Below are positions 6,167-59,040 of a stretch of DNA of 64,000 bases, piece after piece; within the stretch, counting starts at the first letter, position 1, and each line of letters begins with the position of its first letter. The stretch covers positions 124,001-188,000 of the forward strand of contig NZ_LVYD01000049.1 in assembly GCF_002077945.1 (NCBI RefSeq), given 5' to 3'. The position numbers were made by a program, and so were the translations under genes. This stretch comes from Niastella vici. GTDB lineage: Bacteria > Bacteroidota > Bacteroidia > Chitinophagales > Chitinophagaceae. A model generated the notes under the pieces. It was not told the DNA's origin, made no database searches, and saw only the letters and a program-made list of their open reading frames with translations.

Positions 6167-6196
6167 CTTACCTCATACTTCTTACTTCTTACTTCC
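6167..6196. repeat. Heptamer tandem repeat (TTACTTC type)
   Basis: Seven-base units CTCTTAC, CTCATAC, TTCTTAC, TTCTTAC, TTCCAAT run in exact 7-base phase just upstream of pyrR. The same word family is seen at 26231-26259. Confidence 0.6.
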
Positions 6197-6272
6197 AATC
6201 CCTTTCCCCTCATTAACTTTCTTCCTTCTACTAACTTACTTTTTCCTAATTTGGCCCTTCAAAATATTTTCG

Positions 6273-6794
6273 GTGAAGACGATTTTAAATGAACAGCAAC
6301 TGGCCATTATAATCCGGCGGCTTAGTCACCAGGTACTGGAGAATAATATCAATCTCGATAATACGGTTTTTATAGGCATTCAGCCCAGAGGCATTTTTGT
6401 GTCAGATCAAATGATCCAGGTGATCAGGCAGCTCGCTTCGCCCGAAAAAGTGCAGTATGGCAGGCTGGATATCACTTTTTACCGCGACGATGTGCGCAAT
6501 AACATTCATGTACCCAATCAAACCGATATTCCCTTCAGCGTAGAAAATAAGAACGTGGTGCTCATCGATGACGTATTGTACACGGGCCGTACCATCAGGG
6601 CCGCCCTGGATGCCCTGCTCGATTTTGGCCGGCCCGCCAAAGTAGAGCTGTGTGTGCTTATCGACCGCCGTTTTAGCCGGGAATTGCCTATTCAGCCCGA
6701 TTATACCGGCCGGTCAATTGACTCCATCGTGTCGCAAAAAGTAAAGGTTTTCTGGAAAGAACGCGATGGGAAAGAAGAAGTTGTGCTTTTATAA
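6273..6794 (+). CDS. pyrR: PyrR-like uracil phosphoribosyltransferase / pyr regulator
   Basis: The 173-aa product belongs to the phosphoribosyltransferase family and matches PyrR: an N-terminal TILNEQQLAIIIRRLSHQ, a GIQPRGIF segment, TFYRDDVR, and the PRPP-binding loop VVLIDDVLYTGRTIRAALDAL near residues 94-114. PyrR converts uracil and PRPP to UMP and in Bacillus binds pyr mRNA. I use GTG 6273 as start because the open frame upstream to 6156 consists of pyrimidine-repeat translation rich in Phe, Leu and Pro. pyrB follows 81 bases downstream, which fits a pyr regulatory role, but I see no PyrR-type attenuator hairpin between them, so RNA-binding function is only inferred. Confidence 0.85.
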   Translation: MKTILNEQQLAIIIRRLSHQVLENNINLDNTVFIGIQPRGIFVSDQMIQVIRQLASPEKVQYGRLDITFYRDDVRNNIHVPNQTDIPFSVENKNVVLIDDVLYTGRTIRAALDALLDFGRPAKVELCVLIDRRFSRELPIQPDYTGRSIDSIVSQKVKVFWKERDGKEEVVLL

Positions 6795-6875
6795 GTTTCT
6801 GATTTGTAACGCGCCCGCGCGCAAGAAAAAGTAACAGACAACTAATTTATTTTTCCCTTAATTTCGCTGCTTGAA

Positions 6876-7808
6876 ATGCAACTTTCAGTTAAACATCTGC
6901 TCGGTATACGGGATCTCACCCGTCAGGACATTCAGATTATTTTAGATACTGCCACTCAATTCAAGGAAGTTTTACAACGGCCTGTCAAGAAAGTTCCTTC
7001 TTTACGGGATGTAACCATCGTGAATTTATTTTTCGAGAATTCAACCCGTACCAGGATCTCTTTTGAACTGGCTGAAAAACGCCTGAGTGCAGATTCCATT
7101 AATTTTACGGCCAGCGCTTCTTCCGTGTCAAAGGGGGAGACCCTGCTGGATACCGTGAATAATATTTTGTCAATGAAAGTAGATATGGTGGTAATGCGGC
7201 ACAGTGCCAGCGGCGCCCCCCACTTTCTGGCAAAACATATTCCGGCCGCTATCGTAAATGCAGGGGATGGCATCAATGAACACCCCACACAGGGTTTGCT
7301 CGATGCGTTCTCCATGCGCGAGAAACTGGGCCGGCTCGAAGGCCTTAAAGTGGCCATCATTGGCGATATTATGCATTCGCGGGTGGCCATGAGCAATATT
7401 TATCTGCTTAAGAAAATGGGGGCCGAAGTAACAGTGGCAGGGCCGCCAACACTTATTCCCAAATACATTCAGGAAGCTTTTGATATCAGGGTTGAATACA
7501 ACCTGAAAAAGGCCCTGCAATGGTGCGATGTGGCCAATGTACTGCGCATTCAGCTCGAAAGGCAGAACCAGGTATTGTTCTCCTCACTGCGCGAGTACAG
7601 CCTGGCCTACGGCATCAATAAACAGCTGCTCGACAGCCTCGATAAAAAGATCGTGATCATGCACCCCGGACCCATTAACAGGGGCGTGGAACTCGACAGC
7701 GATGCAGCCGACAGCAACCAGAGCATCATTTTACAACAGGTAGAAAACGGGGTGGCAGTGCGTATGGCGGTATTGTACCTGCTATCGGGCGGACGGGAAT
7801 TGAGTTAG
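6876..7808 (+). CDS. pyrB: Aspartate carbamoyltransferase catalytic subunit
   Basis: The 310-aa protein condenses aspartate with carbamoyl phosphate in the committed step of pyrimidine synthesis. Carbamoyl-phosphate binding residues are visible in FFENSTRTRISFELA (residues about 52-66), with further motifs SKGETLLDT, HPTQGLLDAF and the C-terminal MHPGPINRGVELD. Length is typical of catalytic chains. No pyrI regulatory subunit is adjacent. The gene follows pyrR and precedes coaD on the same strand; a TAATTTCG element at 6859-6866 could be its own -7 box. A heptamer-repeat hairpin begins 3 bases after the stop codon. Confidence 0.95.
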   Translation: MQLSVKHLLGIRDLTRQDIQIILDTATQFKEVLQRPVKKVPSLRDVTIVNLFFENSTRTRISFELAEKRLSADSINFTASASSVSKGETLLDTVNNILSMKVDMVVMRHSASGAPHFLAKHIPAAIVNAGDGINEHPTQGLLDAFSMREKLGRLEGLKVAIIGDIMHSRVAMSNIYLLKKMGAEVTVAGPPTLIPKYIQEAFDIRVEYNLKKALQWCDVANVLRIQLERQNQVLFSSLREYSLAYGINKQLLDSLDKKIVIMHPGPINRGVELDSDAADSNQSIILQQVENGVAVRMAVLYLLSGGRELS

Positions 7809-7810
7809 TT

Positions 7811-7863
7811 TCAGGTTACAGGTTTCAAGGAATACCTGTAACATGCAACCTGAAACCTGTAAC
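7811..7863. repeat. Heptamer repeat hairpin (CAGGTTA/CCTGTAA type)
   Basis: The left arm reads CAGGTTA, CAGGTTT, CAAGG; the right arm reads CCTGTAA, CATGCAA, CCTGAAA, CCTGTAA. Both arms keep a 7-base period and are complementary, so they can form a hairpin around AATA. Related words occur at 33191-33262 and 56033-56091. Confidence 0.7.
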
Positions 7864-7920
7864 GGTTTCTTATGAACTGAAAAGTATCTCTCTTTCAATC
7901 ACGTACTTTAATATTAACGC

Positions 7921-8385
7921 ATGCAACGCATAGCTTTATTTCCCGGCACCTTTGACCCCATTACCATTGGTCATCTGGATATTATTCACCGCGCGCTTCC
8001 TTTATTCGACAAGCTGGTGATCGGTATCGGGCGTAATGCCAATAAATCGGCCATGTTCACTGAAGAACAGCGGATGAAATGGATCAAGGAGATCTTCCGG
8101 GATAATCCCAAAGTTGGCGTAGCCGTGTATGAAGGACTAACAGTAGAATGTTGCCGAAGGGTAGGCGCCAATTTCATTGTACGGGGCATTCGGTATGTAA
8201 ACGATTTTGAATACGAAAAGGCTATTGCCGATATGAACCGGAGCCTCGATAAAGATATAGAGACCGTTTTTCTCACCTGTTTACCTCAATATACTTCTGT
8301 AGCCTCCACCCTGGTGAGGGATGTTATACGCAATGGCGGCGATGCCCGGCAGTTTTTGCCCGATGCGGTAGCAAAAGACATTTAG
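7921..8385 (+). CDS. coaD: Phosphopantetheine adenylyltransferase
   Basis: The 154-aa protein transfers AMP from ATP to 4'-phosphopantetheine, the penultimate step of coenzyme A synthesis. It shows the nucleotidyltransferase signature GTFDPITIGHLDIIHRA (T/HxGH motif, residues 9-25), the central RGIRYVNDFEYE and the C-terminal TSVASTLVRDVI, all diagnostic of bacterial CoaD. Length is close to the usual 160 aa. The gene lies 112 bases after pyrB behind a repeat hairpin, so it may have its own promoter. It is followed by an octamer-repeat gap. Confidence 0.95.
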   Translation: MQRIALFPGTFDPITIGHLDIIHRALPLFDKLVIGIGRNANKSAMFTEEQRMKWIKEIFRDNPKVGVAVYEGLTVECCRRVGANFIVRGIRYVNDFEYEKAIADMNRSLDKDIETVFLTCLPQYTSVASTLVRDVIRNGGDARQFLPDAVAKDI

Positions 8386-8390
8386 AAACA

Positions 8391-8467
8391 GTTAGTAAGT
8401 TCTTAAGTTTGTAAGTCTATTGAAGTTTCCTAATTGAACTAACGAACTCAATAACAAACAAACAAAC
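8391..8467. repeat. Octamer-phase repeat arms
   Basis: The left arm reads TTAGTAAG, TTCTTAAG, TTTGTAAG, then TCTATTGAAG. The right arm is GAACTAAC, GAACTCAA, TAACAAAC, AAACAAAC. The period is about 8 and the arms are roughly complementary. It resembles the 7-base repeats elsewhere in the window and fills the whole gap between coaD and the thioesterase gene. Confidence 0.5.
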
Positions 8468-8472
8468 TTAAA

Positions 8473-8901
8473 ATGATCTGGCATAAAAAAGACCTTCAAC
8501 TGCAGGAGATCCTTCTCCTGGGCAAGGGCACTATGGGCGAGTTTTTAGGCATTGAGTTCACCGGGGTTGGACCTGATTTTATAAAGGGTATTATGCCGGT
8601 TGATGCCCGTACAAAGCAGCCCTATGGCTTGCTGCATGGCGGGGCTTCCTGCGTACTGGCCGAAACCCTGGGCAGTGTGGCTTCGGCACTGGTGATCGAT
8701 CAGGAGAAGTTCATTTGCGTGGGGCTTGAGATCAATGCCAATCATATTCGCGGGGTACGCGAGGGCAGGGTAACGGGTATAGCCACACCGTTGCACATAG
8801 GCGCCACCACCCATGTGTGGGATATAAAGATCCATGATGAACGCGAAAAATTAGTGTGTGTAAGCCGGTTGACCGTAGCCATTCTCAAAAAGCCTCAGTA
8901 A
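8473..8901 (+). CDS. PaaI-type hotdog-fold thioesterase
   Basis: The 142-aa protein has the hotdog acyl-CoA thioesterase layout of the PaaI/YbgC/MenI group. The conserved YGLLHGGASCVLAETLGSVAS (residues about 52-72) carries the helix with the Gly-Gly pair and the likely catalytic Glu. The strand regions ICVGLEINANHIRGVREG and TTHVWDIKIHDEREKLVCVSR follow. Such enzymes hydrolyse acyl-CoA thioesters; the size and HGG pattern fit MenI-like 1,4-dihydroxy-2-naphthoyl-CoA or aromatic acyl-CoA hydrolases, but the substrate cannot be read from sequence. Its stop codon overlaps the convergent NUDIX gene by 7 bases. Confidence 0.85.
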   Translation: MIWHKKDLQLQEILLLGKGTMGEFLGIEFTGVGPDFIKGIMPVDARTKQPYGLLHGGASCVLAETLGSVASALVIDQEKFICVGLEINANHIRGVREGRVTGIATPLHIGATTHVWDIKIHDEREKLVCVSRLTVAILKKPQ

Positions 8902-9518
8902 CCTGCAGTTTTCAATACATCAATAATAGCCGGAAAGGTATTAGAAACATACTTTTGAAGGTCATTGGGCGCGGCCCATTCTATCTGGGTTATTTGCTCA
9001 ATAGTTTGCGGTGTTAAGGCCTGTTTTTTAGGGGCCGATAACAGGTACCAGGCCGATTCTTTCAGAATATGATGGCCGCTTTCATCGTAGGTATGCCAGG
9101 TGGTTACCAGGTGTTTCTTTAGTTGTACTTTCTGTAATCCGGTTTCTTCCTGTATTTCGCGCACGGCGCAATCTTCCAGTGTTTCTCCCTCATCGAGTTT
9201 ACCCTTTGGCAGGTCCCATTTTCCCCGGCGAAAGATGAACAATAGCTCGCCGGCCTCGTTAATAACCAGTCCGCCCGCCGCCTTTACCAGGATGAACTTT
9301 TTCCAGAATGCTTTCTTAAGCTCCTCTATATTGTTATGCAGGTAAATACCGGCGTGCACTTTTTCCTGCCGCATTTCGTGGATCATGGAATTGATGCCCC
9401 CATGCGAAAACTCGTCAATAAGCACTGCATCATCATGGTGGGCATAGGGTTCAATTTCGGCAGTAATGGAATCGGTCAGGAACAGTGGTTTGTCGTTAAA
9501 GTATATCTTTATGTGCAT
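8895..9518 (-). CDS. NUDIX hydrolase
   Basis: The 207-aa protein has a NUDIX box at about residues 114-136: GKLDEGETLEDCAVREIQEETGL matches GX5EX7REUXEEXGU completely once its two halves are read together, with the pyrophosphate-cleaving Glu residues present. An extra N-terminal part of about 95 aa (IYFNDKPLFLTDSITAEIE, then HDDAVLIDEFSHGG) precedes the NUDIX domain, a layout seen in Bacteroidota. The substrate, probably a nucleoside diphosphate derivative, is unknown. It is convergent with the thioesterase gene (7-base overlap) and divergent from pyrE, with 62 bases between the two starts. Confidence 0.88.
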   Translation of the reverse strand: MHIKIYFNDKPLFLTDSITAEIEPYAHHDDAVLIDEFSHGGINSMIHEMRQEKVHAGIYLHNNIEELKKAFWKKFILVKAAGGLVINEAGELLFIFRRGKWDLPKGKLDEGETLEDCAVREIQEETGLQKVQLKKHLVTTWHTYDESGHHILKESAWYLLSAPKKQALTPQTIEQITQIEWAAPNDLQKYVSNTFPAIIDVLKTAGY

Positions 9519-9580
9519 AACTTATTTTCAGTTTTCAGGTAGCAAAGACCAATTTCGCCGCAAATAACTTAATCAATAAT

Positions 9581-10216
9581 ATGTCTTCGAACGAAAAGGC
9601 TGTAGCCGAAAAGTTATTACAAAGTAATGCTATTAAATTAAATCCCGAGCAACCCTTTACCTGGGCTTCGGGTTGGAAAAGCCCCATTTATTGCGATAAC
9701 CGCCGGGTATTATCGTTCCCTTTTATCCGTGATTTCATCAAATCTGAGATGTGCAATGTGGTGTTTCAGGAGTTTCCCGATGCCGATTTACTGGCCGGGG
9801 TAGCCACCGCCGGCATTCCCTGGGGAGCTATGGCCGCCGACCAGTTGAAACTTCCTTATATATATGTTCGTCCAAAACCCAAGGAGCATGGATTGGGTAA
9901 CCAGATCGAAGGGTATTATACCGCCGGGCAAAAAGTGGTGGTGATCGAGGACCTGATCTCAACCGGAAAAAGCAGCTTGCAGGTGGTTGATGTGGTAAAA
10001 GCAGCCGGGTTGGAAGTGATGGGAATGGTGTCGATTTTCACGTATGGTTTCCCGGTGGCAACCGAAGCTTTTGCAAAAGCGGGGGTGCCCTATATCTCCC
10101 TTACCAACTATGGAACGCTCATTGAGCTGGCGGTGGAAAAGGGAATAGTGTCGGCCAACCAGCAGGAAATTTTAATGAACTGGCGTAAAGACCCGGCAGG
10201 CTGGACGGGAAAATAA
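9581..10216 (+). CDS. pyrE: Orotate phosphoribosyltransferase
   Basis: The 211-aa protein makes orotidine 5'-phosphate from orotate and PRPP in pyrimidine synthesis. Signs are the N-terminal WASGWKSPIYCDNR, the loop LLAGVATAGIPWGAMAADQL, the Lys-containing segment YVRPKPKEHGLGNQIEG of the flexible catalytic loop, and the PRPP motif VVVIEDLISTGKSSLQVV. Length is standard. With pyrR and pyrB only 2-3 kb away this is a loose pyrimidine neighbourhood rather than one operon, since the NUDIX gene on the other strand intervenes. Confidence 0.95.
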   Translation: MSSNEKAVAEKLLQSNAIKLNPEQPFTWASGWKSPIYCDNRRVLSFPFIRDFIKSEMCNVVFQEFPDADLLAGVATAGIPWGAMAADQLKLPYIYVRPKPKEHGLGNQIEGYYTAGQKVVVIEDLISTGKSSLQVVDVVKAAGLEVMGMVSIFTYGFPVATEAFAKAGVPYISLTNYGTLIELAVEKGIVSANQQEILMNWRKDPAGWTGK

Positions 10217-10320
10217 TACTCCCGGCCCCCTTATAGGTGGAGGGAAATACCAATTCCGAAGGCCGGTCCCCAATTTTTGAACAAATTCGATATTTAATAA
10301 ATAGCCATATTTCAATAAAA

Positions 10321-10348
10321 AAATCCGCTCTTTTGAGCGGATTTTTTT
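10321..10348. terminator. Bidirectional intrinsic terminator
   Basis: A 10-bp stem AAATCCGCTC/GAGCGGATTT with a TTTT loop is flanked by A and T runs. It lies between pyrE and the convergent heavy-metal domain gene and can end both. Confidence 0.85.
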
Positions 10349-10372
10349 ATATCTAATTATTTTTAATAAATA

Positions 10373-10729
10373 CTACATGCCGCCGCCGTCTTCGGTCTTT
10401 TTGCAGCATTTCGGCAGCTTCTTATACGCTTCAGCATCAGCCTTCACATCATCGGCATCATAACCTGAATTGGCAATGGCAGCCTTGATATTTTCTGCAT
10501 TCGTACGCTCAGTATAGAACGTAACTTTTGTAACATGATGCTTGTAATCCACGTTTGCTTTCTGAATTCCATCTTCGCGTTTCAGGTAATCTTCGATGCG
10601 TTTTTTGCAACTTTCGCATTGAACGGTAGGGGTCTGAATGGTGACTGTCTGGATCCCCTTTTTTACCTGGGCTGAACCGAAGGTGGTAATTCCAATAATG
10701 GCAATAGCCAGTAAAAGTAATTTCTTCAT
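10373..10729 (-). CDS. Secreted heavy-metal-associated (HMA) domain protein
   Basis: This 118-aa protein has a signal peptide (MKKLLLLAIAIIGITTFGSAQ) followed by an HMA ferredoxin-like domain. The metal-binding motif here is CESCKKR (CxxC, residues about 38-44), then VDYKHHVTKVTFY and IKAAIANSGYDADDV. A Cys pair sits in the tail (KCCKKTEDGGG). Such periplasmic metallochaperone-like proteins bind Cu+ or similar soft metals; the exact metal is not shown. No copper ATPase or regulator is adjacent. It appears monocistronic, with the shared terminator directly after it. Confidence 0.85.
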   Translation of the reverse strand: MKKLLLLAIAIIGITTFGSAQVKKGIQTVTIQTPTVQCESCKKRIEDYLKREDGIQKANVDYKHHVTKVTFYTERTNAENIKAAIANSGYDADDVKADAEAYKKLPKCCKKTEDGGGM

Positions 10730-11503
10730 ACCACTTGTTTTTTCAAATGTAATTATTTCGGGTCATCATTTTCGTTAATTTTTTGCCAGCGGTAAACCAT
10801 ATATATTACCTGCCCGGTTGCCCGAAAAATGGGTTGTGCGAAAGGTGATTTTACGATCATTCATAATTCGCGACGAATGCCACACCGGTCAAAAAATGGC
10901 GCGATTTTATCATTTTGGGGCGTCCATTTTTTTCAGTCAAACTGGCATGGATGGGTGAAATGGTGAATGGTCAATGGTGAATGGGGAATCGGAAAACAGG
11001 TAGCGTAAATCAATCTGCCAGCTGCCGAATTGATCCTGAATCGATCCTGGCCATGCCCTAAATAATCGGTAATCGCCAATTCAAATTGACCATTGACCAT
11101 TCACCATTGACCTGGCAACCGGTGCCTGGCAACTATCGGTTTTCAGTAAAACCGGTGGTTCAAATTCCGCAAAATTCAAAAAAATTGTTCCGCCGTTTTT
11201 TTGATCGCTGGTTGTACTTTTTCTTAAGGTCGTCAATTTTGGGGGTAGGATGGGAAGAAATTTCAGTCAACCCGGTCACCGGTTTTTTGAAATTTGCTGG
11301 TGTGGGAGTGACTTCATTTAAGGACACATTTTGGGCCGGTCCTCAAAAAAGGTTGCATTGAGTAAAAATTTTTTTAGAAAAATTTTGGGCTGGAACCGGG
11401 CTTCCGGAATCCGGAAAAACGAGAACCGGGATTTTATCAGTCGCCGGTTTTTCCAAAAAATGGAATTTTATTTTTTGGGCAGGAAGCCGGTTTTGCCGGC
11501 CGC
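10730..11503. other. Gene-free region with heptamer repeat
   Basis: I find no convincing gene in this 774-base gap. It contains a two-armed heptamer repeat (10952-11112), followed by low-complexity sequence with many T runs and CCGG words (for example GGAACCGGGCTTCCGGAA). The open frame at 11086-11361 starts inside the repeat and shows no coding character. Confidence 0.6.
10952..11112. repeat. Heptamer repeat arms (AATGGTG/TTCACCA type)
   Basis: The left arm near 10957-10992 runs AATGGTG, AATGGTC, AATGGTG, AATGGGG, AATCGG. The right arm near 11085-11112 runs TTGACCA, TTGACCA, TTCACCA, TTGACC. Both keep a 7-base period and are mutually complementary across about 95 bases. The same words recur at 26163-26180 and 30676-30705. 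Confidence 0.7.
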
Positions 11504-11953
11504 CTAAAACTGGATTTTCTGCATGCCTTCGTACCGGATGGGCCAATTTATAAACAGACCGCCGCGGCCGATTTTTGCACTTCCATTCAATTTAATAAAT
11601 ACACTATCGCTACCCGACGCCAGGGTTTTCAGCAACCCGATCGCCGTATTATTCATGTTCACTTTCAGGACCACCGGCAACAAAAAGGTATCTTTTTTCG
11701 GGATCTGGATGGCCGTGTCGAGCATCGTTTTTCCGAAAAAATTATTGTTGACATATACATCCACCGCCGCCCCTTTCATGGTCACCGGGTACTTGTTCGG
11801 ATTATAATATTCTACATCGGCTCCCACCGTCGACTCCTTCAACCCGAATTGCAGCACTTTGAAATTTCGAACCCCCAGGTAATCGAACCCGGTCGGCTTT
11901 GCACAGGCTACCGCCAAAAGGGGTAGGAGCAACCACCCTGTCTTTTTTCGCAT
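11504..11953 (-). CDS. LEA type 2 family lipoprotein
   Basis: The 149-aa protein starts with a lipoprotein signal (MRKKTGWLLLPLLAVAC). The body resembles the LEA14/WHy domain: alternating beta strands with STVGADVEYYNPNKYPVTM, which is the conserved N-P-N region, then DVYVNNNFFGKTMLD and FLLPVVLKVNMNN. Bacterial LEA_2 lipoproteins are common in Bacteroidota, without a settled role. ATG 11953 is preferred to the upstream start at 12001 because it directly precedes the signal peptide. It seems monocistronic in a gene-poor area. Confidence 0.75.
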   Translation of the reverse strand: MRKKTGWLLLPLLAVACAKPTGFDYLGVRNFKVLQFGLKESTVGADVEYYNPNKYPVTMKGAAVDVYVNNNFFGKTMLDTAIQIPKKDTFLLPVVLKVNMNNTAIGLLKTLASGSDSVFIKLNGSAKIGRGGLFINWPIRYEGMQKIQF

Positions 11954-12247
11954 GTCATTGATTTTATGGGCACAATGTAGCGGATAAATTTCTCCGGCCA
12001 AAAAACTGGTCGTACTTTAGGATTTTCTTTGCTAATGTTTTTAGATTTAGCCGCCTTTAAATTGAAAAAAATGCCGAAAAAAGACTACCAGAATTTTTAG
12101 TAATTGTTATTTAAAGTAAAATTTTAATTATCAAGTAAATTACCGGTTTTTATTGAATTTAAAATTTCAAGTTTTTGATAGTCAAAATGATAGATTTTCA
12201 CGCAATTTTGGCCAATCTTAAACAAAATTCGGAAAAAGTTAAAGTTT

Positions 12248-16005: not shown

Positions 16006-16013
16006 TGATTACA

Positions 16014-26106: not shown

Positions 26107-26162
26107 GATGTAGGAGGTAAGAAGTAGAAAATTGCCAATGCCGATTTCACAACTGGTTCATG

Positions 26163-26180
26163 CGAGCCAAAGTATTCACC
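26163..26180. repeat. Heptamer repeat fragment (TTCACCA type)
   Basis: Units TTCACCA, TTGACCA, TTCACAA run in 7-base phase in the gap between trmH and the thioredoxin-like gene. They are the same words as in 11085-11112. Confidence 0.6.
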
Positions 26181-26215
26181 ATTGACCATTCACAATTTAA
26201 AACACAAAAGCATCC

Positions 26216-26704
26216 ATGAAAGTCTTATATCTTACTTCATACTTCATTCTTCTTACTTCAATGGGCTTCTCCCAAACTATCAAAAAAGTGAAAGTGACCG
26301 AAGTGGAAGACTACATTAAGAACAGCGATCATCCTATTGTGCTGAATTGCTGGGCTACCTGGTGTGCGCCCTGTGTTGAGGAAATCCCTTATTTTATGGA
26401 AACGGTAAAAAAGTACAGCGATCAAAAAGTTGAATTGCTGCTGGTAAGCCTTGATCTGCCAAAATCATATCCCACCCAAATACAGGCGCTGATAAAGAAA
26501 AAGAATTTCGAAGCCACTTACTTCTGGCTGAACGAAACCAATGCCGATTATTTTTGTCCGAAGATAGATCCCAAATGGGATGGCACGCTGCCTTCTACCT
26601 TATTTGTAAATACAAAGACCGGTTACCGTAAATTTTTTGGCCGTCCCATGACCGATAGACAAATTGAATTGGAAGTGGGCAGGTTAACCGGATTGAAACA
26701 ATAA
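26216..26704 (+). CDS. Thioredoxin-like (TlpA/ResA-type) secreted disulfide reductase
   Basis: The 162-aa protein has an N-terminal signal (MKVLYLTSYFILLTSMGFSQ) and a thioredoxin fold with active site WATWCAPCVEEIPYF near residues 45-59. Such periplasmic TlpA/ResA-like proteins reduce disulfides, for example in cytochrome c maturation or in envelope redox defence. An insertion with FEATYFWLNETNADYF and the conserved cis-Pro region TLPSTLFV are seen. The bases encoding the signal peptide (26231-26259) are a heptamer tandem repeat, so part of this N-terminus seems to derive from repeat DNA. Confidence 0.88.
   Translation: MKVLYLTSYFILLTSMGFSQTIKKVKVTEVEDYIKNSDHPIVLNCWATWCAPCVEEIPYFMETVKKYSDQKVELLLVSLDLPKSYPTQIQALIKKKNFEATYFWLNETNADYFCPKIDPKWDGTLPSTLFVNTKTGYRKFFGRPMTDRQIELEVGRLTGLKQ
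26231..26259. repeat. Heptamer repeat inside a signal-peptide coding region
   Basis: CTTACTT, CATACTT, CATTCTT, CTTACTT follow each other in exact 7-base phase and encode residues of the hydrophobic core of the signal peptide. The opposing words GTAAGAAGTAG occur at about 26116-26126. Confidence 0.65.
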
Positions 26705-30605: not shown

Positions 30606-30675
30606 GGGATATAGATTAATTTTTTTTCATCTATTGCTTCTTTTCCAATCTGTAGTGTGCAAGAATTGTGCTAAT

Positions 30676-30705
30676 CGTGAATGGTGAATGGTCGATGGTC
30701 AATGG
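30676..30705. repeat. Heptamer repeat (GTGAATG type)
   Basis: Units GTGAATG, GTGAATG, GTCGATG, GTCAATG run in 7-base phase. A weak complementary arm (TTCACCTTCACC) stands near 30755-30770. It lies between mltG and the secG terminator. Confidence 0.6.
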
Positions 30706-30777
30706 GCCTCCGAATTTTGAGTTTCGCTATTATTTTCGGCTGCACAGTCGTGAACTATTCACCTTCACCAAAATACA

Positions 30778-32693: not shown

Positions 32694-33293
32694 TTACCAG
32701 TTTGAAAAAATACGATTGAAAATTTCATCCACCACCTGTTTAACGATGGTTTCAGTTAGCTGCGCCTCAGCCTGCGTAAGGGTGAGGCTTGCCGAATAAT
32801 CGAAGTTACGGGAAACATCGGCTTCAAAGTTCTTTGACTGGTCAAGGTTGTTCCTAAAATTTATATGCACAGTTACGGTAAGGCGCTGGGTGGCGGCAGT
32901 TTGGTTCGAAATACCCGATGTTGTTACATTGTATCCGGTGATCTGGCCACTGATATCGTAATGGGCATCGTCGGATTGCACACCGGTAAGCCGGGTTTGG
33001 CCGGTGATCTTCTGCCTTAATTTATCGGTTAACTGCGGGCTTAGCTGAGGATTGATGTAGCGGGCCCGGTTCTCGATATAATTTACTCTAAAGGTCTTTA
33101 CTTCTTTAGGAATGGAACCAATGTCTTTAAACGTATAGCATCCTGCAAACAGGAGCGCTACAGGCAACAGACAACAGGCAATAAGAATTGCAGGTTTCAG
33201 GTTCCAGGTTCCAGGGTTTTGGCCCCTGTAACTTGTAACTTGTAACCTGTAACCTGTAACTTCTACTTTCAATATCTTACTCTTTAATATCAT
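32694..33293 (-). CDS. lptE: LptE-family LPS-assembly lipoprotein
   Basis: The mature part begins at the lipobox LLFAGC, followed by YTFKDIGSIPKEVKTFRVNY, NPQLSPQLTDKLRQKI and SDDAHYDISGQITGYNV, the Bacteroidota LptE pattern. LptE forms the outer-membrane LPS translocon with LptD. The start is uncertain: ATG 33293 overlaps the end of the upstream regulator gene by 17 bases and gives a 34-residue polar extension before the hydrophobic signal (AILIACCLLPVALLF). That extension is encoded by heptamer repeats (33191-33262). No other ATG exists before the lipobox, so a TTG start or a repeat-derived long n-region must be considered. Confidence 0.8.
   Translation of the reverse strand: MILKSKILKVEVTGYRLQVTSYRGQNPGTWNLKPAILIACCLLPVALLFAGCYTFKDIGSIPKEVKTFRVNYIENRARYINPQLSPQLTDKLRQKITGQTRLTGVQSDDAHYDISGQITGYNVTTSGISNQTAATQRLTVTVHINFRNNLDQSKNFEADVSRNFDYSASLTLTQAEAQLTETIVKQVVDEIFNRIFSNW
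33162..33262. repeat. Heptamer repeats inside the lptE 5' end
   Basis: From 33162 run AGGCAAC, AGACAAC, AGGCAAT. From 33191 run CAGGTTT, CAGGTTC, CAGGTTC; after a GGCC centre come CCTGTAA, CTTGTAA, CTTGTAA, CCTGTAA, CCTGTAA. Two word types with the same 7-base period adjoin and the second forms a hairpin. All of it is translated if lptE starts at 33293. Confidence 0.75.
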
Positions 33294-45001: not shown

Positions 45002-45117
45002 CTGTTACCAGTTGCCCGTTCCCGGTTTCCGGGTATTAATTTTCGGGCAGTCCGACTTTTGGCAGAAAGCCATAAAATTTATGGTCCCGGTAACCGGTAT
45101 CTGGTAACAGGTAACTG
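45002..45117. repeat. Heptamer repeat arms (TGTTACC/GGTAACA type)
   Basis: The left arm is TGTTACC, AGTTGCC, CGTTCCC, GGTTTCC (45003-45030). The right arm is CGGTAAC, CGGTATC, TGGTAAC, AGGTAAC (about 45088-45115). Both keep the 7-base period and are complementary. It fills the gap between permeases 4 and 5. Confidence 0.7.
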
Positions 45118-47529: not shown

Positions 47530-47587
47530 ATGAAAAACAGGTTTCTTCAGTTTATGATTGTTTCATTTGCCTTTCATAGGGCCTTCG

Positions 47588-47666
47588 TGAAACGGCAAAC
47601 GGCAAACGTGAAAGAAGACCGCGGTTACGGTTTTACGTTTCACGTTTCACTTTTCACGTTTCACGA
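47588..47666. repeat. Heptamer repeat arms (AAACGGC/TTTCACG type)
   Basis: The left arm is AAACGGC, AAACGGC, AAACGTG, AAAG. The right arm is TTTCACG, TTTCACT, TTTCACG, TTTCACG. Period 7 with complementary arms, in the gap between permeases 3 and 4. Confidence 0.7.
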
Positions 47667-47667
47667 T

Positions 47668-50061
47668 TTATTCGGTTCGCAAGCTCTTTACCGGGTTGGC
47701 CACTGCTGCCCTGAAGGCCTGCACACTGATTGTTATAATGGCTATCAGCAGTGCCAATATGCCGGCAACGGCGAATATCCACCAGCTTATTTGGGTACGG
47801 TAAGCAAAATCATTGAGCCATTTATGCATAAAATACCAGGCAACCGGCGAGGCAATAAAGAAGGAAATGATCACCAGCTTCAAAAACTCTTTTGATAACA
47901 GGTTGATGATATTTGATACAGATGCGCCCATTACTTTTCTGATGCCTATTTCGCGGGTACGTTGCATAGTGCTGTACGATGCCAGTCCCAGCAAACCCAG
48001 GCAGGAAATAAAGATGGCCAGGGCGGCAAAGTTCAGGAACAAGCGGCCAAAGCGTTCTTCACTGCGGTATTGCCGGTCAAAGAATTCATCGAGGAAATAA
48101 TAGCTGAAAGGCCGGTTAGGGATGCTGGTTTTAAATTGTTTTTCAATGTCAGCAATGGTACCCTTTATACCTGCCTGGTTCACCTTAACTGATATTAAAC
48201 CCATGCGGGGCCATTCCATACGCAGGCACAATGGTTTAATGGGGTTCTGCAGTGATTTATAATGAAAGTCTTTTATCACCCCAACGATCTTTCCTTCACG
48301 GCCCCATTGTTTAAACCGTTTGCCAATGGCCTGGTCGGGCGAACGATAGCCAAGCGTACGCACGGCTGCTTCGTTCAGGATCAACGCCTGGGTGGTATCT
48401 GTTTTAAATTCCCTGTTATAAGGCCGGCCTGCCGCCATTTTTATATTGTAAAGGGGAATGTAATCGAAATCCACAAAGTACACATCGAGGTTGGTGATCT
48501 GCAGATCCCCTTTAATATTCTCCACTTCTGAATAAGCGCCCGCGTAGCCACTGCCCGGCACGCTGCCCGATAAGGAAACCGCTTTTACGTTTGGTAAACG
48601 CGAAATTGCCTGTTTCAAAGCCTCCCTGTTCTTATCCTCGTTTGTATCAATTACCAGTACCTGGTCTTTATTAAAGCCCAGGCTCTGGTTGCGCATATAA
48701 CGCATTTGCGAATACACAATGATAGTGCCTATGATCAATGCGGTAGATATGGCAAATTGTGAAATAACAAGGGTTTTGCGCAGGGTGGCCCCGCGCGAAC
48801 TGGTTGCATAGCGGCCTTTCAACACTTCTATGGGGTTAAAAGACGATAATATAAATGCCGGGTAAATGCCTGCAAGCAAACCTATTACAAGGGAGGTTGC
48901 TAAGATCAGTAACAGCAAACCGGGATTTTCAAATATGCCTTTGCTGATGGTTTTACCGGCCAGTTCATTGAATGCAGGCAAAAGCAACGCTGCCAGGCCC
49001 AGAGTTAACAGGAACGCTATTAAACAAATGATCACCGATTCACCGATGAACTGCCGGGCCAGTTGGCCTTTTATAGCCCCGGCTACTTTCCGTATCCCAA
49101 CTTCCTTAGCCCTTTCCGATGCCCTTGCTGTGGTAAGGTTAATGAAGTTAATACAGGCGATAATGAGGATAAATGCAGCTATGATAGAAAAAATATAAAC
49201 ATTTTTAATATTCCCCGACGACTTACTGCTCCCTAAATCCCCACGGGTTGAATGCAGGTACACATCTTTCAATTTTTCTAACAACACAGTAGGATACATC
49301 TGGATCTGTTTCATCTCTTCTCCATTCCACTTTTCCAGAAAAGCTGGAAACTTCTTTTGCAGGGCCTGTGCGTTAGTGCCTGGCTTAAGCAGTAAATACG
49401 CATAAGGACCATAATTGCCCCACTGGTTATCGAGGTCTTTCGCCCATTCAGCTGTTAAGGTGCACATTGATAATACTACATCGCTTTTTATCTGCGAGTT
49501 TTCAGGCATATCTTTCATTATGCCTGTTACTGTGGCCGGTACCGCCCCGCCCGTTATCAATAGGGTTTTACCAAACGCATCGTCTTTCCCGAAATATTTT
49601 TTAGCTGCTGTTTCCGATAGTACTACGCTAAAGGGGTGTATTAATGCAGTACGTACATCTCCCCTGATCAACCGGAAATTAAATATTTGAAAGAATGCTG
49701 AATCGGCCCATATGGCGCCTTCTTCCATGAATTTAATATCGTCTTTTCTAAACAATACATTGTCAGGGTTCACGCGGGTATATGCTTCCACTTCAGGAAA
49801 ATCGAGCTTTGCGTGAGGGGCAACCGGCCAGGCCGGACCACTGGTAGGAATTAGTTCTGTAGGTGTTTTCAGGTCTGTTACGATCCGGTATATACGATCG
49901 GCTTTTGTATGAAAAGAATCATAGCTTAATTCAAAGCGTACATACAGGAAGATCAGTAAACAGGCCGTCATGCCTACGGCTAATCCCATGATATTGATAA
50001 AGGAGAATACCCGGTGGCGCCACAGGTTTCGAAATGCGATCTTGAAATAGTTCTTTAACAT
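47668..50061 (-). CDS. ABC transporter permease, double FtsX/MacB_PCD type (permease 3)
   Basis: The 797-aa permease shows an N-terminal helix (FSFINIMGLAVGMTACLLIFL), a periplasmic core and a first FtsX block with NLTTARASERAKEVGIRKVA (residues about 308-327). A second helix (TLVISQFAISTALIIGTIIV), a second core and a last block with RTREIGIRKVMGASVSNII near residue 710 follow. All parts expected for an active MacB-like permease are there. The C-terminus ANPVKSLRTE groups it with permease 4. Its stop codon follows directly on a TTTCACG repeat arm, only one base away, so the repeat borders the coding region. Confidence 0.92.
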   Translation of the reverse strand: MLKNYFKIAFRNLWRHRVFSFINIMGLAVGMTACLLIFLYVRFELSYDSFHTKADRIYRIVTDLKTPTELIPTSGPAWPVAPHAKLDFPEVEAYTRVNPDNVLFRKDDIKFMEEGAIWADSAFFQIFNFRLIRGDVRTALIHPFSVVLSETAAKKYFGKDDAFGKTLLITGGAVPATVTGIMKDMPENSQIKSDVVLSMCTLTAEWAKDLDNQWGNYGPYAYLLLKPGTNAQALQKKFPAFLEKWNGEEMKQIQMYPTVLLEKLKDVYLHSTRGDLGSSKSSGNIKNVYIFSIIAAFILIIACINFINLTTARASERAKEVGIRKVAGAIKGQLARQFIGESVIICLIAFLLTLGLAALLLPAFNELAGKTISKGIFENPGLLLLILATSLVIGLLAGIYPAFILSSFNPIEVLKGRYATSSRGATLRKTLVISQFAISTALIIGTIIVYSQMRYMRNQSLGFNKDQVLVIDTNEDKNREALKQAISRLPNVKAVSLSGSVPGSGYAGAYSEVENIKGDLQITNLDVYFVDFDYIPLYNIKMAAGRPYNREFKTDTTQALILNEAAVRTLGYRSPDQAIGKRFKQWGREGKIVGVIKDFHYKSLQNPIKPLCLRMEWPRMGLISVKVNQAGIKGTIADIEKQFKTSIPNRPFSYYFLDEFFDRQYRSEERFGRLFLNFAALAIFISCLGLLGLASYSTMQRTREIGIRKVMGASVSNIINLLSKEFLKLVIISFFIASPVAWYFMHKWLNDFAYRTQISWWIFAVAGILALLIAIITISVQAFRAAVANPVKSLRTE

Positions 50062-52588: not shown

Positions 52589-52652
52589 CTCCTTGTATTT
52601 ATTGCTGGTTTTTTTACAGGAACGGGTTCCTTACCCGCTGTGCAGGGGCTTC

Positions 52653-52671: not shown

Positions 52672-52696
52672 CTCCGTATAAGGTTTACCCGAAAAA

Positions 52697-55117: not shown

Positions 55118-55118
55118 G

Positions 55119-55796
55119 TTATACCATTATGTTCTCCAGTACGGTTTGTCCGTCGAGCATACGAATGATGCGATGGCTGTAACGTGCATCGTGTTCGCTG
55201 TGCGTAACCATTATTATGGTGGTGCCCTGTTCGTTGAGATCGGTGAGCAGGGTCATCACTTCGTTACCATTGCTGCTGTCGAGGTTACCCGTAGGCTCAT
55301 CGGCCAGTATGAGTTTGGGATTATTTACCACAGCCCTCGCCACCGCCACGCGTTGTTGCTGGCCACCGCTCAGTTGTTGGGGGTAGTGGTTGCGGCGGTG
55401 CATGATCTGCATTTTATCAAGCACTTCCTCCACACGCTTTTTACGGTCGCCCGCTTTTACCCCGGTATATATCAGCGGTAATTCTACATTTTCAAACACG
55501 GTGAGCTCATCGATCAGGTTAAAGCTCTGGAAAACGAAACCGATATTGTGCTTGCGCAGATCGGCCCGTTTGCGTTCGTTAAAATGCGCTACTTCAATAT
55601 TGTTGAACAGGAAGCTGCCGTTATCCGGGTCATCGAGCAGTCCCAGGATATTCAATAAAGTAGATTTGCCACATCCCGAAGGGCCCATAATGGCTACAAA
55701 TTCGCCTTCTTTAACATCTATGGAGATTTTGTTCAATGCTACTGTTTCAACCTCTTCTGTGCGATAGATTTTTTCGAGATCCCGGATCTTTATCAT
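55119..55796 (-). CDS. ABC transporter ATPase, LolD/MacB type (copy 1)
   Basis: The 225-aa ATPase has Walker A GPSGCGKSTLLNILG, the Q-loop region IGFVFQSFNLIDELTVFEN, the signature [17 protein letters not shown], Walker [20 protein letters not shown] and IIMVTHSEHDARYS with the switch His. All motifs are intact and typical for MacB/LolD-type exporters. It is about 45% identical by eye to copy 2 at 41477. It lies between the small secreted peptide gene and permease 1, so the order adaptor, peptide, ATPase, permeases is kept on one transcript. Confidence 0.93.
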   Translation of the reverse strand: MIKIRDLEKIYRTEEVETVALNKISIDVKEGEFVAIMGPSGCGKSTLLNILGLLDDPDNGSFLFNNIEVAHFNERKRADLRKHNIGFVFQSFNLIDELTVFENVELPLIYTGVKAGDRKKRVEEVLDKMQIMHRRNHYPQQLSGGQQQRVAVARAVVNNPKLILADEPTGNLDSSNGNEVMTLLTDLNEQGTTIIMVTHSEHDARYSHRIIRMLDGQTVLENIMV

Positions 55797-55825
55797 GTGC
55801 TGTATGGTTTGAATTATAGAGTTAT

Positions 55826-56017
55826 TTAAAAATTATTGAAAAGATGAATGGGCAACAGCTGCACATCATCGATCATCATGGTGACCACTTTAGCCGGTGT
55901 TGTTACGGTAGTGGCCTGTTTGCCTGTACAACCTGTTCCGTTGCAGCACCTGTTGGGCGAAGCCGCCAGGCTGGCGCAGATCAGAATGACGAGTATACAG
56001 ATAAATTTTGGCTTCAT
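55826..56017 (-). CDS. Small Cys-containing secreted peptide
   Basis: This 63-aa product begins with a good signal peptide (MKPKFICILVILICASLAAS). The predicted mature part of about 43 residues starts with SPNRCCNGTGCTGKQATTV and ends in the hydrophobic stretch DDVQLLPIHLFNNF. I recognise no family. Three Cys within seven residues are unusual for a random frame, and the gene fits snugly between the HlyD-type adaptor (80 bases, repeat-filled) and the ATPase (29 bases). It could be an accessory or a cargo peptide of the exporter; it could also be a lipoprotein-like or spurious frame. Confidence 0.55.
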   Translation of the reverse strand: MKPKFICILVILICASLAASPNRCCNGTGCTGKQATTVTTPAKVVTMMIDDVQLLPIHLFNNF

Positions 56018-56032
56018 TTTATAATGTTTGTG

Positions 56033-56091
56033 TTACAGGTTTCAGGTTACAGGTTATAACCCCCTGCAACTTGCAACTTGTAACCTGTAAC
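56033..56091. repeat. Heptamer repeat hairpin (CAGGTTA/CTTGTAA type)
   Basis: TACAGGT, TTCAGGT, TACAGGT on the left; after CCCC come CTTGCAA, CTTGTAA, CCTGTAA on the right. Period 7, arms complementary. Same words as at 7811-7863 and 33191-33262. Confidence 0.7.
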
Positions 56092-56097
56092 AAATTG

Positions 56098-57354
56098 CTA
56101 TTCTTTCTTCAATACCAGTATCTCCATGTTGCCATAGTTCTCGTAGGAGGAAGTAACCACCTTGTCGCCCGGTTTCAATCCTTCCATCACTTCATAGTAA
56201 TCGGGGTTCTGGCGGTTCAGCTGTATGTCCACCCGGTACGCTGTTTTTCCGTCTTCACTTACTTTAAAGATCCAGTTGCCGCCGGTTGTTTGATAAAAAC
56301 CGCCTTTGGGCACCAGTATGGCTTCCGTTTCATCGCTGAGGGCCAGCAATATCTGCAGCGTTTGTCCGCGGCGGATACCCTGTGGCACTTCGCCAACAAA
56401 TTCCATATCAACCTGAAAACGGTTGCTGACTACCTGGGTATACACTTTCTTTATCTTCAGCTTATATTCTTTGTTCGCGAATGTAAACTTTGCGGTTAAC
56501 CCGGTGAACACGTTTGAGATATAATGTTCATCAATATCGGCCCTGATCTTGAAACCTGTGGCCGCGTCTATCTGGCCCAGCCGGGTGCCGGCGCTGATGT
56601 TCTGCCCAATTTCGGCATCAAACGAAGTGAGCTGTCCGCCAATGGGCGCTTTCACTACCAGGTCGCCAACTTTCTTTTTCATGAGGTCGAGCGCCTTTTT
56701 CATATTCAGGTACGATTGCTCCTGTTGCTGCAGTTGAATTTTGTTGGTGGCCGAATCCTGCCGCATAATATCCTCGGTCAGTTTCTTCCGGCGCACCTGG
56801 TACTGGTAGGCATTCTCGGCCTGCAGGTATTCCTGCGAACCGATCACTTTTTGCGCAATCAGTTTTTTATTCAGGTTGTATAAACGTTCTGCTTCTTTCA
56901 GGGCATTATCTACCTCAGCCATCTGGTTCAACCGGGATACGGTATTTTGCTGGGCATTGTTGCGGGCGATCTGCATTTGCGTCAATACGTTGAACACACT
57001 GGTTTCCTGGTTGGCCAGGCTTAATTCCAGGTCGGGGTTGCTGAGGCGTAGGATGGGCTGGCCTTCCTGCATTACGGTGCCGTCTTCAACGAACTTCTGT
57101 TCTACCCGGCCGCCTTCCTGCGCATCGAGATAAATAGAGGTTTGTGGTAATACGATGCCGTTAATGGGTATGGTAACCTGGAAAGGCCCTTTTTTAACTT
57201 CACTAATGGTGATACGTTCGGTATCTACGTTCAGGCGGCTTTTTCCGGCAGTGAAATAGTAACTGGCGCCAATCAGCAGGGCGATCGCTGTAATGCCGGC
57301 GATGGTAAGAATCCGTTTAAAGGTCCATGTCTTTTTTTCAATAACTCTATCCAC
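56098..57354 (-). CDS. HlyD/MacA-type periplasmic adaptor protein
   Basis: The 418-aa membrane fusion protein has one N-terminal helix (ILTIAGITAIALLIGASYYF) and a barrel-sandwich hybrid half-motif (IYLDAQEGGRVEQKFVEDGT). A long coiled-coil hairpin (residues about 105-225) follows, then the second lipoyl half (VKAPIGGQLTSFDAEIGQNI) and beta-barrel and membrane-proximal domains. This is the MacA/HlyD fold that joins the inner-membrane ABC permease with a TolC channel. The start is GTG 57354 (reading MDRVIEKK); no ATG is close. It is the first gene of the main export transcript, divergent from the response regulator gene. Confidence 0.92.
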   Translation of the reverse strand: MDRVIEKKTWTFKRILTIAGITAIALLIGASYYFTAGKSRLNVDTERITISEVKKGPFQVTIPINGIVLPQTSIYLDAQEGGRVEQKFVEDGTVMQEGQPILRLSNPDLELSLANQETSVFNVLTQMQIARNNAQQNTVSRLNQMAEVDNALKEAERLYNLNKKLIAQKVIGSQEYLQAENAYQYQVRRKKLTEDIMRQDSATNKIQLQQQEQSYLNMKKALDLMKKKVGDLVVKAPIGGQLTSFDAEIGQNISAGTRLGQIDAATGFKIRADIDEHYISNVFTGLTAKFTFANKEYKLKIKKVYTQVVSNRFQVDMEFVGEVPQGIRRGQTLQILLALSDETEAILVPKGGFYQTTGGNWIFKVSEDGKTAYRVDIQLNRQNPDYYEVMEGLKPGDKVVTSSYENYGNMEILVLKKE

Positions 57355-57468
57355 TGTATAAATTTTTTAATGTAATCCTGCATACCCTTGCCAATAACAA
57401 TATGCCAGAATATAAGAAGGGTGATTACCAGTTATTTAGACCGTAAATTACTATAATGCTGTTCGCAA

Positions 57469-57501
57469 CCAGTACACCGGGTGTACGGTTTTGATACAAT
57501 G
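57469..57501. promoter_or_regulatory. Composite 33-bp motif, copy B
   Basis: It has the palindrome GTACACCGGGTGTAC followed at once by GGTTTTGATACAATG. Layout and 25 of 33 bases agree with copy A at 42279-42311. It lies about 115 bases before the adaptor gene and about 112 bases before the response regulator gene, so it may serve both. Confidence 0.55.
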
Positions 57502-57612
57502 CCCGAAAAGCCGCATTCTTTCGTAAAAAATTGTTTGCCACGGCTTTGTAATTATGGTATAATTGTAGTTGCGAATGTTGCATCAAACCCTGACATTATT
57601 TATACTAAAGTT

Positions 57613-58971
57613 ATGTTACTGAAGAATGCTACCATACTCGTGATCGATGATGACGTGGATGTACTCACCGCTGTACGGCTGTTGCTGAAAACTGAAGCAA
57701 AAGAAGTAGTGACGGAAAAGAACCCCGAGAATCTGCGCTGGCTATTGTCGAAACAGCAGTTTGATGTAATACTGCTCGATATGAATTTCAATAGTTCCAT
57801 CAATACCGGTAATGAGGGATTGTTCTGGTTGAAGAAAGTGAAAGAATTTAAATCGGAAGCGGCCGTGATCATGATCACCGCATACGGTGATATCGACCTC
57901 GCCGTTCGTTCGCTGAAAGAGGGGGCTGCTGATTTTGTAGTAAAACCCTGGCACAATGAAAAGCTGATCATTACCATTAAAGATGCGCTGAAGAAAAAGG
58001 AAGGCAAAATGGCATCTTTGACCACGCGCAGCATCGATTCTATCATAGGCACCGAATTGCTGGGTGAATCGGAGATCATGGCCGATATCTTTTATAAGAT
58101 CGAAAAAATAGCCCCTACCGATGCCAATATTTTAATACTGGGTGAGAACGGTACCGGTAAAGACCTGATCGCAAAAGCCATACACCAGCAATCATTGCGG
58201 GCCCGGAAAGCCTATGTGAAAGTGGATGTAGGCGCGCTTACAGAAACGCTTTTTGAAAGCGAGCTGTTCGGCCATAAGAAAGGCGCGTTCACCGATGCGC
58301 GGGAAGACAGGGTAGGGCGGTTTGAAGCCGCCAATGGCGGAACCCTTTTCCTGGATGAGATCGGCAATATTTCCCTGCACCAGCAGGCCAAATTATTAAG
58401 TGTACTGCAAAACCGGCAGGTGATCAGGTTGGGGACCAATGACCCCGTACCGGTTGACATTCGCCTTATTTGCGCTACCAATGTACCGTTGACCGAACTG
58501 GCCAATGAAAACCGTTTCCGCAAAGACCTTATCTATCGCATCAATACGGTAGAGATCATGGTTCCGCCCTTACGTAAACGGGGCAATGATATTATACTGC
58601 TGGCAAAATATTTCAGCCAGCTGTACAGCAATAAATACCTGAAACCCGTGATGCAGTTTGATGATAAGGCAATCGAAAAGCTGCTGAATTATCATTTCCC
58701 CGGTAACATCAGGGAGCTGCAATATACCATCGAGCGTGCGGTGATCATGTCAGACGGGAACGATCTGCAGGCCACTGACCTTATATTTTCACCCATTGAA
58801 TCAAACACCACACGTGAAAAGGAACCCGATGAGCTGAACCTGAGCGCTGTTGAAAAAAATACCATCTTGCATGTAATTGAAAAGCACAACGGCAATATTA
58901 CCAGGGCTGCGAAGGAATTGGGACTTACGCGTACGGCGCTGTACCGGAGACTGAGCAAATACGATATCTGA
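57613..58971 (+). CDS. Sigma-54-dependent response regulator (NtrC family)
   Basis: The 452-aa protein has a receiver domain (residues 1-125) with acidic pocket VIDDDVD, phosphoacceptor Asp in VILLDMNF, Thr in MITAYGD and Lys in FVVKPWH. The AAA+ domain has Walker A GENGTGKDLIAKAIH, Walker B GGTLFLDEIGN and NPGNIREL-like FPGNIRELQYTIERA. A Fis-type helix-turn-helix (ITRAAKELGLTRTALYRRL) ends it. The sigma-54 contact loop reads GAFTDA instead of GAFTGA. The start is ATG 57613, directly before the receiver; the upstream 44 codons do not look coding. It is followed by its histidine kinase and divergent from the export genes it probably controls. Confidence 0.93.
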   Translation: MLLKNATILVIDDDVDVLTAVRLLLKTEAKEVVTEKNPENLRWLLSKQQFDVILLDMNFNSSINTGNEGLFWLKKVKEFKSEAAVIMITAYGDIDLAVRSLKEGAADFVVKPWHNEKLIITIKDALKKKEGKMASLTTRSIDSIIGTELLGESEIMADIFYKIEKIAPTDANILILGENGTGKDLIAKAIHQQSLRARKAYVKVDVGALTETLFESELFGHKKGAFTDAREDRVGRFEAANGGTLFLDEIGNISLHQQAKLLSVLQNRQVIRLGTNDPVPVDIRLICATNVPLTELANENRFRKDLIYRINTVEIMVPPLRKRGNDIILLAKYFSQLYSNKYLKPVMQFDDKAIEKLLNYHFPGNIRELQYTIERAVIMSDGNDLQATDLIFSPIESNTTREKEPDELNLSAVEKNTILHVIEKHNGNITRAAKELGLTRTALYRRLSKYDI

Positions 58972-58978
58972 GCGTGAA

Positions 58979-59040
58979 CCAATAGGCAACAGACAATTAG
59001 CAAAAAGTGAATACCAGGCACCCAATAACAAGCACCCAAA
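58979..59040. repeat. Heptamer repeat (AGGCAAC type)
   Basis: AGGCAAC, AGACAAT, TAGCAAA in 7-base phase, then CAGGCACCCAATAAC and AAGCACCCAAAA with a 14-base shift. The AGGCAAC, AGACAA words are the same as at 33162-33180. It lies between the response regulator and kinase genes. Confidence 0.5.

Follow-up and report, generated by a model that had tools for sequence, protein, structure and literature searches.

The 64,000-nucleotide stretch of the Niastella vici genome analysed here (the window; G000:C49:124001-188000, G000 being the window's own genome) raises the question of what the short tandem units are that recur in its intergenic gaps, keeping a 7-base period although their words differ. 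We propose that these arrays are gene-less derivatives, palindromes or single arms, of intervening-sequence (IVS) elements, whose full form comprises an array of a 7- or 8-nt word, an open reading frame (ORF) of ~120 aa for an intervening-sequence protein (IVP, or S23p; PF05635), and the same array inverted. That the arrays are arms of this element family is very probable; that the IVP helps copy palindromes in trans is a tentative part of the proposal; and the reading as a whole, pairing and trans copying included, we consider moderately likely. It builds on observed anatomy, word sharing, dispersal, coupled arms, a fixed arm polarity and a 23S ribosomal RNA (rRNA) IVS of the same build.

Reality and placement of the arrays

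Matches were scored per lag in 18-base scoring windows, with cut-offs of 14/18, 15/18 and 16/18. At lag 7 the window holds 12 sites of at least 14/18, eight of at least 15 and six of at least 16, and the remaining lags between 4 and 30 have at most two sites each of at least 15, the harmonic 14 excepted (five sites). The autocorrelation check suggested with the original prediction gave the same picture over 884 kb of the 10.06-Mb genome, where 45 lag-7 sites reach 15/18 against 0 simulated, the chance control being one 400-kb order-2 Markov simulation with scaled counts; the observation made from the window alone is thus confirmed. Lags 5, 6, 8, 9, 10, 11 and 13 gave 0-11 sites in this sample, the 11 being those of period 8 (2.2 simulated). 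The sequence GGTGAATGGTGAATGG, with one mismatch allowed, has 175 matches in the whole genome and none for its reversed control, 6 to 343 in nine congeners (reversed control 0-10), 270 in G012, a genome of another genus of the family, and 0-9 in 28 further genomes searched.

The period is not "strictly" 7, as had been stated. Lag 7 dominates, but a second class of period 8 is present in the window (8390-8428) and abundant in relatives, with 47 sites of at least 15 in 400 kb of congener G007 (Longitalea luteola, Chitinophagaceae), where its enrichment is the highest, so that the term is too narrow. Placement is mostly intergenic, as predicted: in the own-genome sample, 59 arrays lie in 91.4 kb of co-directional gaps, 14 in 14.6 kb of convergent gaps and nine in 33.8 kb of divergent gaps, which are thus poor in arrays, and called genes hold seven of 90 arrays, with one more at an edge. 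Many arrays form inverted pairs, confirming the two complementary arms noted at many loci, and the listed recurrences of words between distant loci can be read in the sequence. Read by eye, the array word is not free, each class keeping a fixed core of ~5-6 bases with one or two variable positions. Stop codons in all frames were considered as a reason for the 7-base period, and the effect is weak (1.45 frames closed, against 1.22 in shuffled arms).

IVP genes between inverted arrays

PF05635, the four-helix-bundle "23S rRNA intervening sequence protein", gave 73 rows in 10/10 congeners and no match in 14 control genomes; the window's own genome has only two matches, both outside the window. 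Seventy of the 73 loci were kept, without two second fragments and a decayed copy next to L129; the flanks of 68 were long enough to score. Lag 7 is found at 14/18 or above upstream of 41 of these 68 genes and downstream of 39, lag 8 at 19 and 17, the harmonic 14 at 38 and 29, lag 9 at two and four, and other lags from 4 to 15 at 0-2. Arrays stand on both flanks of 58/68 IVP genes in the ten congeneric genomes, and the same word recurs inverted in 50/68. The same test on control genes, a set without any IVP gene, found both-flank arrays in 8/140 and same-word inverted arrays in 0/140 genes of 300-480 bp, and 45/1,220 and 2/1,220 over 240-3,000 bp (the smaller set included), the two same-word cases being ordinary-sized genes of G007.

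The sense of the IVP ORF is that of the gene upstream in 66/68 and 71/71 cases (longest open frame). NCBIfam names all seven IVPs tested "four helix bundle protein", Pfam matches are also bAvd-like in both proteins tested, and solved structures of relatives exist (2gsc, 2rld). The Avd protein of diversity-generating retroelements is a relative of IVP. The original prediction had missed the IVP gene family, period 8 and the word families common to the arrays and the IVP loci.

Words shared with gene-less arrays

Gene-less arrays were sampled from 884 kb of G000 and 400 kb each of G002, G003, G004 and G007, with IVP arms removed. At a match of 0.9, 230 of the 299 arrays agree with an IVP-flank word, against 57 with column-shuffled words; we use the figures at 0.9 because column-shuffled words also match often at 0.7-0.8. 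A word of an IVP in the same genome is matched by 106/299 (permutation mean 53; 0/5,000 as high), and at 0.95 the figure is 58 against 29.5 (P 0.0018). Array classes reach 11.6 per Mb with an IVP of the class and 3.8 without (30 and 60 cells, P = 8e-5). Polarity agrees as well: 22 adjacent pairs of one word face as IVP arms do, none the opposite way, and the other 13 of the 35 pairs point in the same direction. With loose-threshold clustering, all 342 arrays, IVP arms included, fall into 15 classes.

Dispersal and coupled arms

Among the matches listed, CCGG-class palindromes of G000, G002, G004 and G007 that lie in unrelated gaps are 72-82% alike across the spacer, a stretch of ~50 bases common to many such gaps, and two palindromes of G002 share 88% identity over 112 bases between different flanks. 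From these spacers and the G002 pair we conclude that gene-less forms multiplied as units. The active copying process originally suggested gains support from such similar palindromes in unrelated gaps, but without the free word variation it had invoked. The arms of a locus change together: likeness is 0.904 within and 0.739 between 56 named loci (permutation maximum 0.787), and 0.889 within and 0.782 between 39 loci next to what we read as argC- and argD-like genes (0/5,000 permutations as high). We also considered simple internal deletions of IVP elements as the source of the palindromes; by eye, the spacers are unlike fused element ends, and we do not claim this origin.

Orthologous gaps, compared in nine genomes with words read by eye, differ in content. 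The pyrB-coaD gap carries inverted arrays of the CAGGTTA, CCGGTTA or CAAGGC class depending on the congener, and in this nine-genome comparison G005 has no array there. Because the words differ and G005 has none, these arrays are explained neither by identical presence everywhere nor by ordinary terminators. In several congeners the gap that follows coaD has period-8 arrays. Between pyrR and pyrB, six genomes have only a short spacer free of arrays; G007 has a CAGGTT-class palindrome there, and G002 an array-ORF-array (IVP) element of 719 bases, of which G004 has a shortened, degraded version. The words do change, as first claimed, but this is better read as family turnover with coupled arm change than as free variation.

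The arrays of the window

Ten gaps had been named originally. Seven reach at least 15/18 (6167, 10952, 26163, 30676, 33162, 47588 and 56033) and two stand at 14 (7811 and 45002); the tenth, 58979, is below 14 at lag 7 among the matches listed, and only Tandem Repeats Finder gives a unit there, of 14 bases. The sites are as follows.

6166..6195, plus strand: single-arm TTACTTC-class array in the gap before pyrR; its word is that of the arms of the IVP gene G000:C57:67267 (L080).
7811..7863, plus strand: palindrome with two arms, CAGGTTA/TAACCTG, of 14/18 at lag 7 (fold z -4.2, -19.8 kcal/mol), whose start directly follows the stop codon of pyrB in the pyrB-coaD gap.
8390..8428, plus strand: AGTTTGTA-like array of period 8 in the gap that follows coaD; absent from the original list.
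10952..11112, minus strand: AATGGTG/AATGGTC palindrome, arms at ~10952-10989 and 11085-11112; fold z -4.3; the word is also at IVP locus L113 (congener G005).
26107..26197, plus strand: mixed remnants, with GAAGTAG-type units at ~26110-26130 (by eye) and ATTCACC/ATTGACC units at 26174-26197; the whole stretch folds no better than shuffles (z 0.0).
26223..26260, plus strand: TTACTTC-class array overlapping the 5' end of ORF 26216..26704.
30673..30765, minus strand: AATGGTG-class palindrome, right arm decayed; fold z -1.5.
33157..33265, minus strand: ACAGGCA array, with a CAGGTTC/CTGTAAC palindrome next to it; fold z -2.95.
45002..45117, minus strand: CCGGTTACC-class palindrome with a ~50-base spacer; 14/18 at lag 7; fold z -5.3; word common to congener IVP loci L115, L117, L118 and L121.
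47584..47671, minus strand: AAACGTG/AAACGGC palindrome; fold z -5.2; the word is that of congener IVP locus L096 (L112 related).
56030..56093, minus strand: CAGGTTA-class palindrome; fold z -3.5.
58979..59040, plus strand: weak degenerate array, below the lag-7 threshold; AGGCAACAGACAA is common with the site at 33.16 kb.

Complementary ends capable of forming a stem give fold z values of -2.95 to -5.25 in six of eight window stretches, the other two being at -1.5 and 0.0.

Proposed mechanism and alternatives

By analogy with 23S rRNA IVSs, which RNase III excises without ligation, the two arms would pair in the transcript into a long stem that RNase III may cut, and an element between operon genes would be tolerated through this predicted cutting. 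Array units would turn over by slippage and the arms would be homogenised; the IVP, through predicted binding, would recognise its own word and help copy palindromes in trans. A broader and more speculative view is that IVPs are the specificity factors of widespread mobile palindromes, each reading its own 7- or 8-nt word in single-stranded form or in a folded transcript, holding both arms of its locus to this word and copying palindromes that bear it to gaps near gene 3' ends, with several word systems per genome; rRNA IVSs, cyanobacterial short tandemly repeated repetitive (STRR) sequences, Xanthomonas GGGAATC pairs and Bacteroidota arrays may then come from one machinery.

Several observations weigh against our proposal. 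Word partners are not always at hand: AATGGTG is frequent in G000, G006 and G007, none of which has an IVP with exactly this word; among the congeners no CAGGTTA-flanked IVP was found, the nearest being CCGGTTA; and in G012, where AATGGTG has its 270 matches, the flank word of the IVP at a hemB-hemL-like gap is AATCGTG, which differs in one base. Among IVP pairs of at least 60% identity, 68/74 are at the same locus, so IVP genes seem to move rarely, the gene apparently staying while palindromes spread. A comparison of spacers alone found a similar partner for 4/48 palindromes (whole elements did better). Of the features of a miniature inverted-repeat transposable element (MITE), dispersed similar copies with inverted ends are present, and by eye no target-site duplication was recognised. 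Congeners share history, so that the permutation tests and density cells are not fully independent. Further afield, the lag-7 cut-off of 14/18 is reached upstream in only nine, and downstream in only ten, of the best 30 phylum-wide Bacteroidota loci. A separate comparison, of protein and word in non-orthologous IVPs, gives a weak correlation (r 0.17, the highest of 2,000 permutations being 0.15), since close IVPs are mostly at one locus.

It is unlikely that every gene-less palindrome is a graveyard copy, a former full IVP element whose ORF was lost in place with no mobilisation in trans. The pyrR-pyrB gap, with array-IVP-array in G002 and its degraded version in G004, fits such decay, as do several truncated or stop-bearing copies among the 73 PF05635 rows of the genus; against it stand the spacer common to CCGG-class palindromes and the 88% pair of G002, as matched above. 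Somewhat less probable is that neutral slippage repeats are kept as messenger RNA hairpins, for stability or spacing, with IVP genes hitch-hiking. Coxiella heptamer copy number varies between strains (PMC4990558, in the part consulted), the passages drawn on propose stability or translation-coupling roles for Nostoc STRRs (PMC2670836), and 67 palindromes fold well (median z -4.7, in a set preselected for inverted arms). This explanation leaves unaccounted for the 50/68 against 2/1,220, the own-genome word match and the prominence of periods 7 and 8.

We think it very improbable that these are elements of the repetitive extragenic palindrome (REP) or bacterial interspersed mosaic element (BIME) kind, moved by a resident Y1 transposase of the REP-associated tyrosine transposase (RAYT) type. 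A single 142-aa Y1_Tnp orthologue does exist in 10/10 congeners and is immediately preceded by a heptamer palindrome in 9/10, but no array follows it in the nine genomes with that side displayed, G009 has none adjacent, and the Y1 sequence is nearly constant between species while neighbouring words differ; the palindromes on both sides that characterise REP-RAYT loci are thus replaced by upstream ones only. This single-copy gene lies between the same two genes in all ten congeners (L231-L240), presumably DAHP synthase- and aroB-like. That the arrays are ordinary intrinsic terminators is hardly credible. Array density is highest in convergent gaps and low in divergent ones, as terminators would have it; most arrays nevertheless lie between co-directional genes, T5 occurs at 7/134 palindrome outer ends and in 34/423 random intergenic 20-mers, with no excess of T-runs, and terminators share neither a 7-base period nor words.

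Spread of the IVP element

IVP is present in 232/296 Bacteroidota genomes, in 36/59 genomes of the phylum of a Desulfobaccales metagenome-assembled genome (MAG) and in 20/61 of that of an Anaerolineales MAG, and one query found no match in phages. The same anatomy recurs in other Bacteroidota, cyanobacterial plasmids, Chloroflexota and Desulfobacterota. For 79 of 80 named relatives of one IVP, scored at 13/18 or above within 200 bases, lag 7 was found upstream in 66, downstream in 66 and on both sides in 56, lag 8 in six and two, lag 15 in nine and two, and lags 4-6 and 9-13 in 0-3; an inverted flank match occurs in 58, and in two after shuffling of the downstream flank. Fourteen of 42 IVP-bearing plasmid records, chosen from the head of the list and to give diversity, show lag 7 on the upstream side in 12 and on the downstream side in nine, lag 8 in three and four, and other lags in 0-3. 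In a further check of ten sequences, seven of them loci already covered, two Anaerolineales loci pass on both sides, an Elusimicrobia locus upstream only, and of two Desulfobaccales loci one passes on both sides and the other downstream only. Shorter inverted arms are visible by eye in others of the best 30 phylum-wide Bacteroidota loci.

In Azospirillum lipoferum AZO_p2 an IVP element with heptamer arms lies within a 23S rRNA gene (Rfam large-subunit (LSU) rRNA, 2,529 bits); among ten IVP sequences from seven distinct loci, Rfam found LSU rRNA for this one (L360) only. Elsewhere, 39 named loci (L270-L349) hold the element between the same two neighbours, which we take to be argC- and argD-like, and because these neighbours are kept, this IVP copy may be domesticated. 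At L201 (381-3317) and L207 (1058-3316) the element lies inside a long DNA methylase ORF (Eco57I type and N6_N4_Mtase type), the host frame staying open through it and the IVP being in another frame of the same strand. On cyanobacterial plasmids, three IVP genes stand among cas genes (L351, L353 and L359): two separate cas6 from cas4, and one separates cas10 from a cmr3-family gene. All three have arrays on both sides, of 7 bases at L351 and L353 and of 8 at L359.

Relation to known systems

The 23S rRNA IVSs of Coxiella, Leptospira and Azospirillum likewise have inverted complementary ends and a sense PF05635 ORF, with heptamer units in Coxiella (PMC4990558) and, as scored here, in Azospirillum; unlike them, the elements of the window are dispersed between protein genes, outside any rRNA gene, and carry no PF05635 ORF. 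Such IVSs are excised by RNase III at the stem of their inverted ends; in Coxiella three GACAGAT heptamers, two in some strains, precede the S23p ORF, and RNase III cuts in vitro, and a Xanthomonas IVP relative cited there is a homopentamer (PMC4990558, relevant passages). The same passages describe the function and origin of rRNA IVSs and of S23p/IVP as unknown or unclear. IVP in rRNA insertions of candidate phyla radiation (CPR) bacteria is called uncharacterised in the portion consulted of PMC11270868.

The STRR likeness first suggested gains support. The window units, too, are degenerate 7-bp tandem units, mostly intergenic and able to form hairpins, with a period-8 class in addition, and the IVP genes of cyanobacterial plasmids stand between heptamer arrays that look like STRRs. 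STRRs belong to another phylum and have other words, and their function is not known (PMC2670836, in part); the STRR passages make no connection to IVP. Xanthomonas GGGAATC and Nostoc GGGGATT heptamers, with 70 and 75 close inverted pairs in two Xanthomonas genomes (PMC4692102), and the TAACTGA repeats of Beggiatoaceae, for which no mechanism is evident (PMC4679880), are also mostly intergenic; unlike our arrays, they are discussed as G-quadruplex or translational sites in the excerpts of these two papers. No linked gene is named in the passages that deal with these cyanobacterial, Xanthomonas and Beggiatoaceae heptamers, and the parts of the open-access literature consulted, most subscription journals and bioRxiv preprints being outside this scope, hold no link between heptamer arrays and IVP except the Coxiella IVS. 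If rRNA IVSs and heptamer repeats are tied to a single element class, both become readily testable, with many dispersed copies and several pairs of protein and word in one genome. IVP genes between cas genes, of which cas loci have 18 and which are listed among CRISPR-Cas-associated functions (PMC3936711, in part), would also gain another reading.

Two further systems resemble the elements in arrangement. In the REP-RAYT system (REPtron), a rarely moving gene stands beside, and apparently serves, many dispersed non-autonomous palindromes; unlike it, IVP elements have no tyrosine transposase at their centre, and their arms are tandem words. Drosophila foldback elements and Rickettsia palindromic elements offer inverted ends of short tandem repeats and palindromes tolerated in genes; to our knowledge they have no sequence relation to IVP arrays.

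Further observations in the window

If the ATG at 26216 is used, the TTACTTC array at the start of ORF 26216..26704, which we take to be thioredoxin-like, encodes a hydrophobic start, MKVLYLTSYFILLTSMGFSQ, of signal-peptide-like look. Between 42538 and 55117 five ORFs of ~800 aa stand in tandem on the minus strand, and palindromes occupy two of the four intervening gaps, at 45.0 and 47.6 kb.

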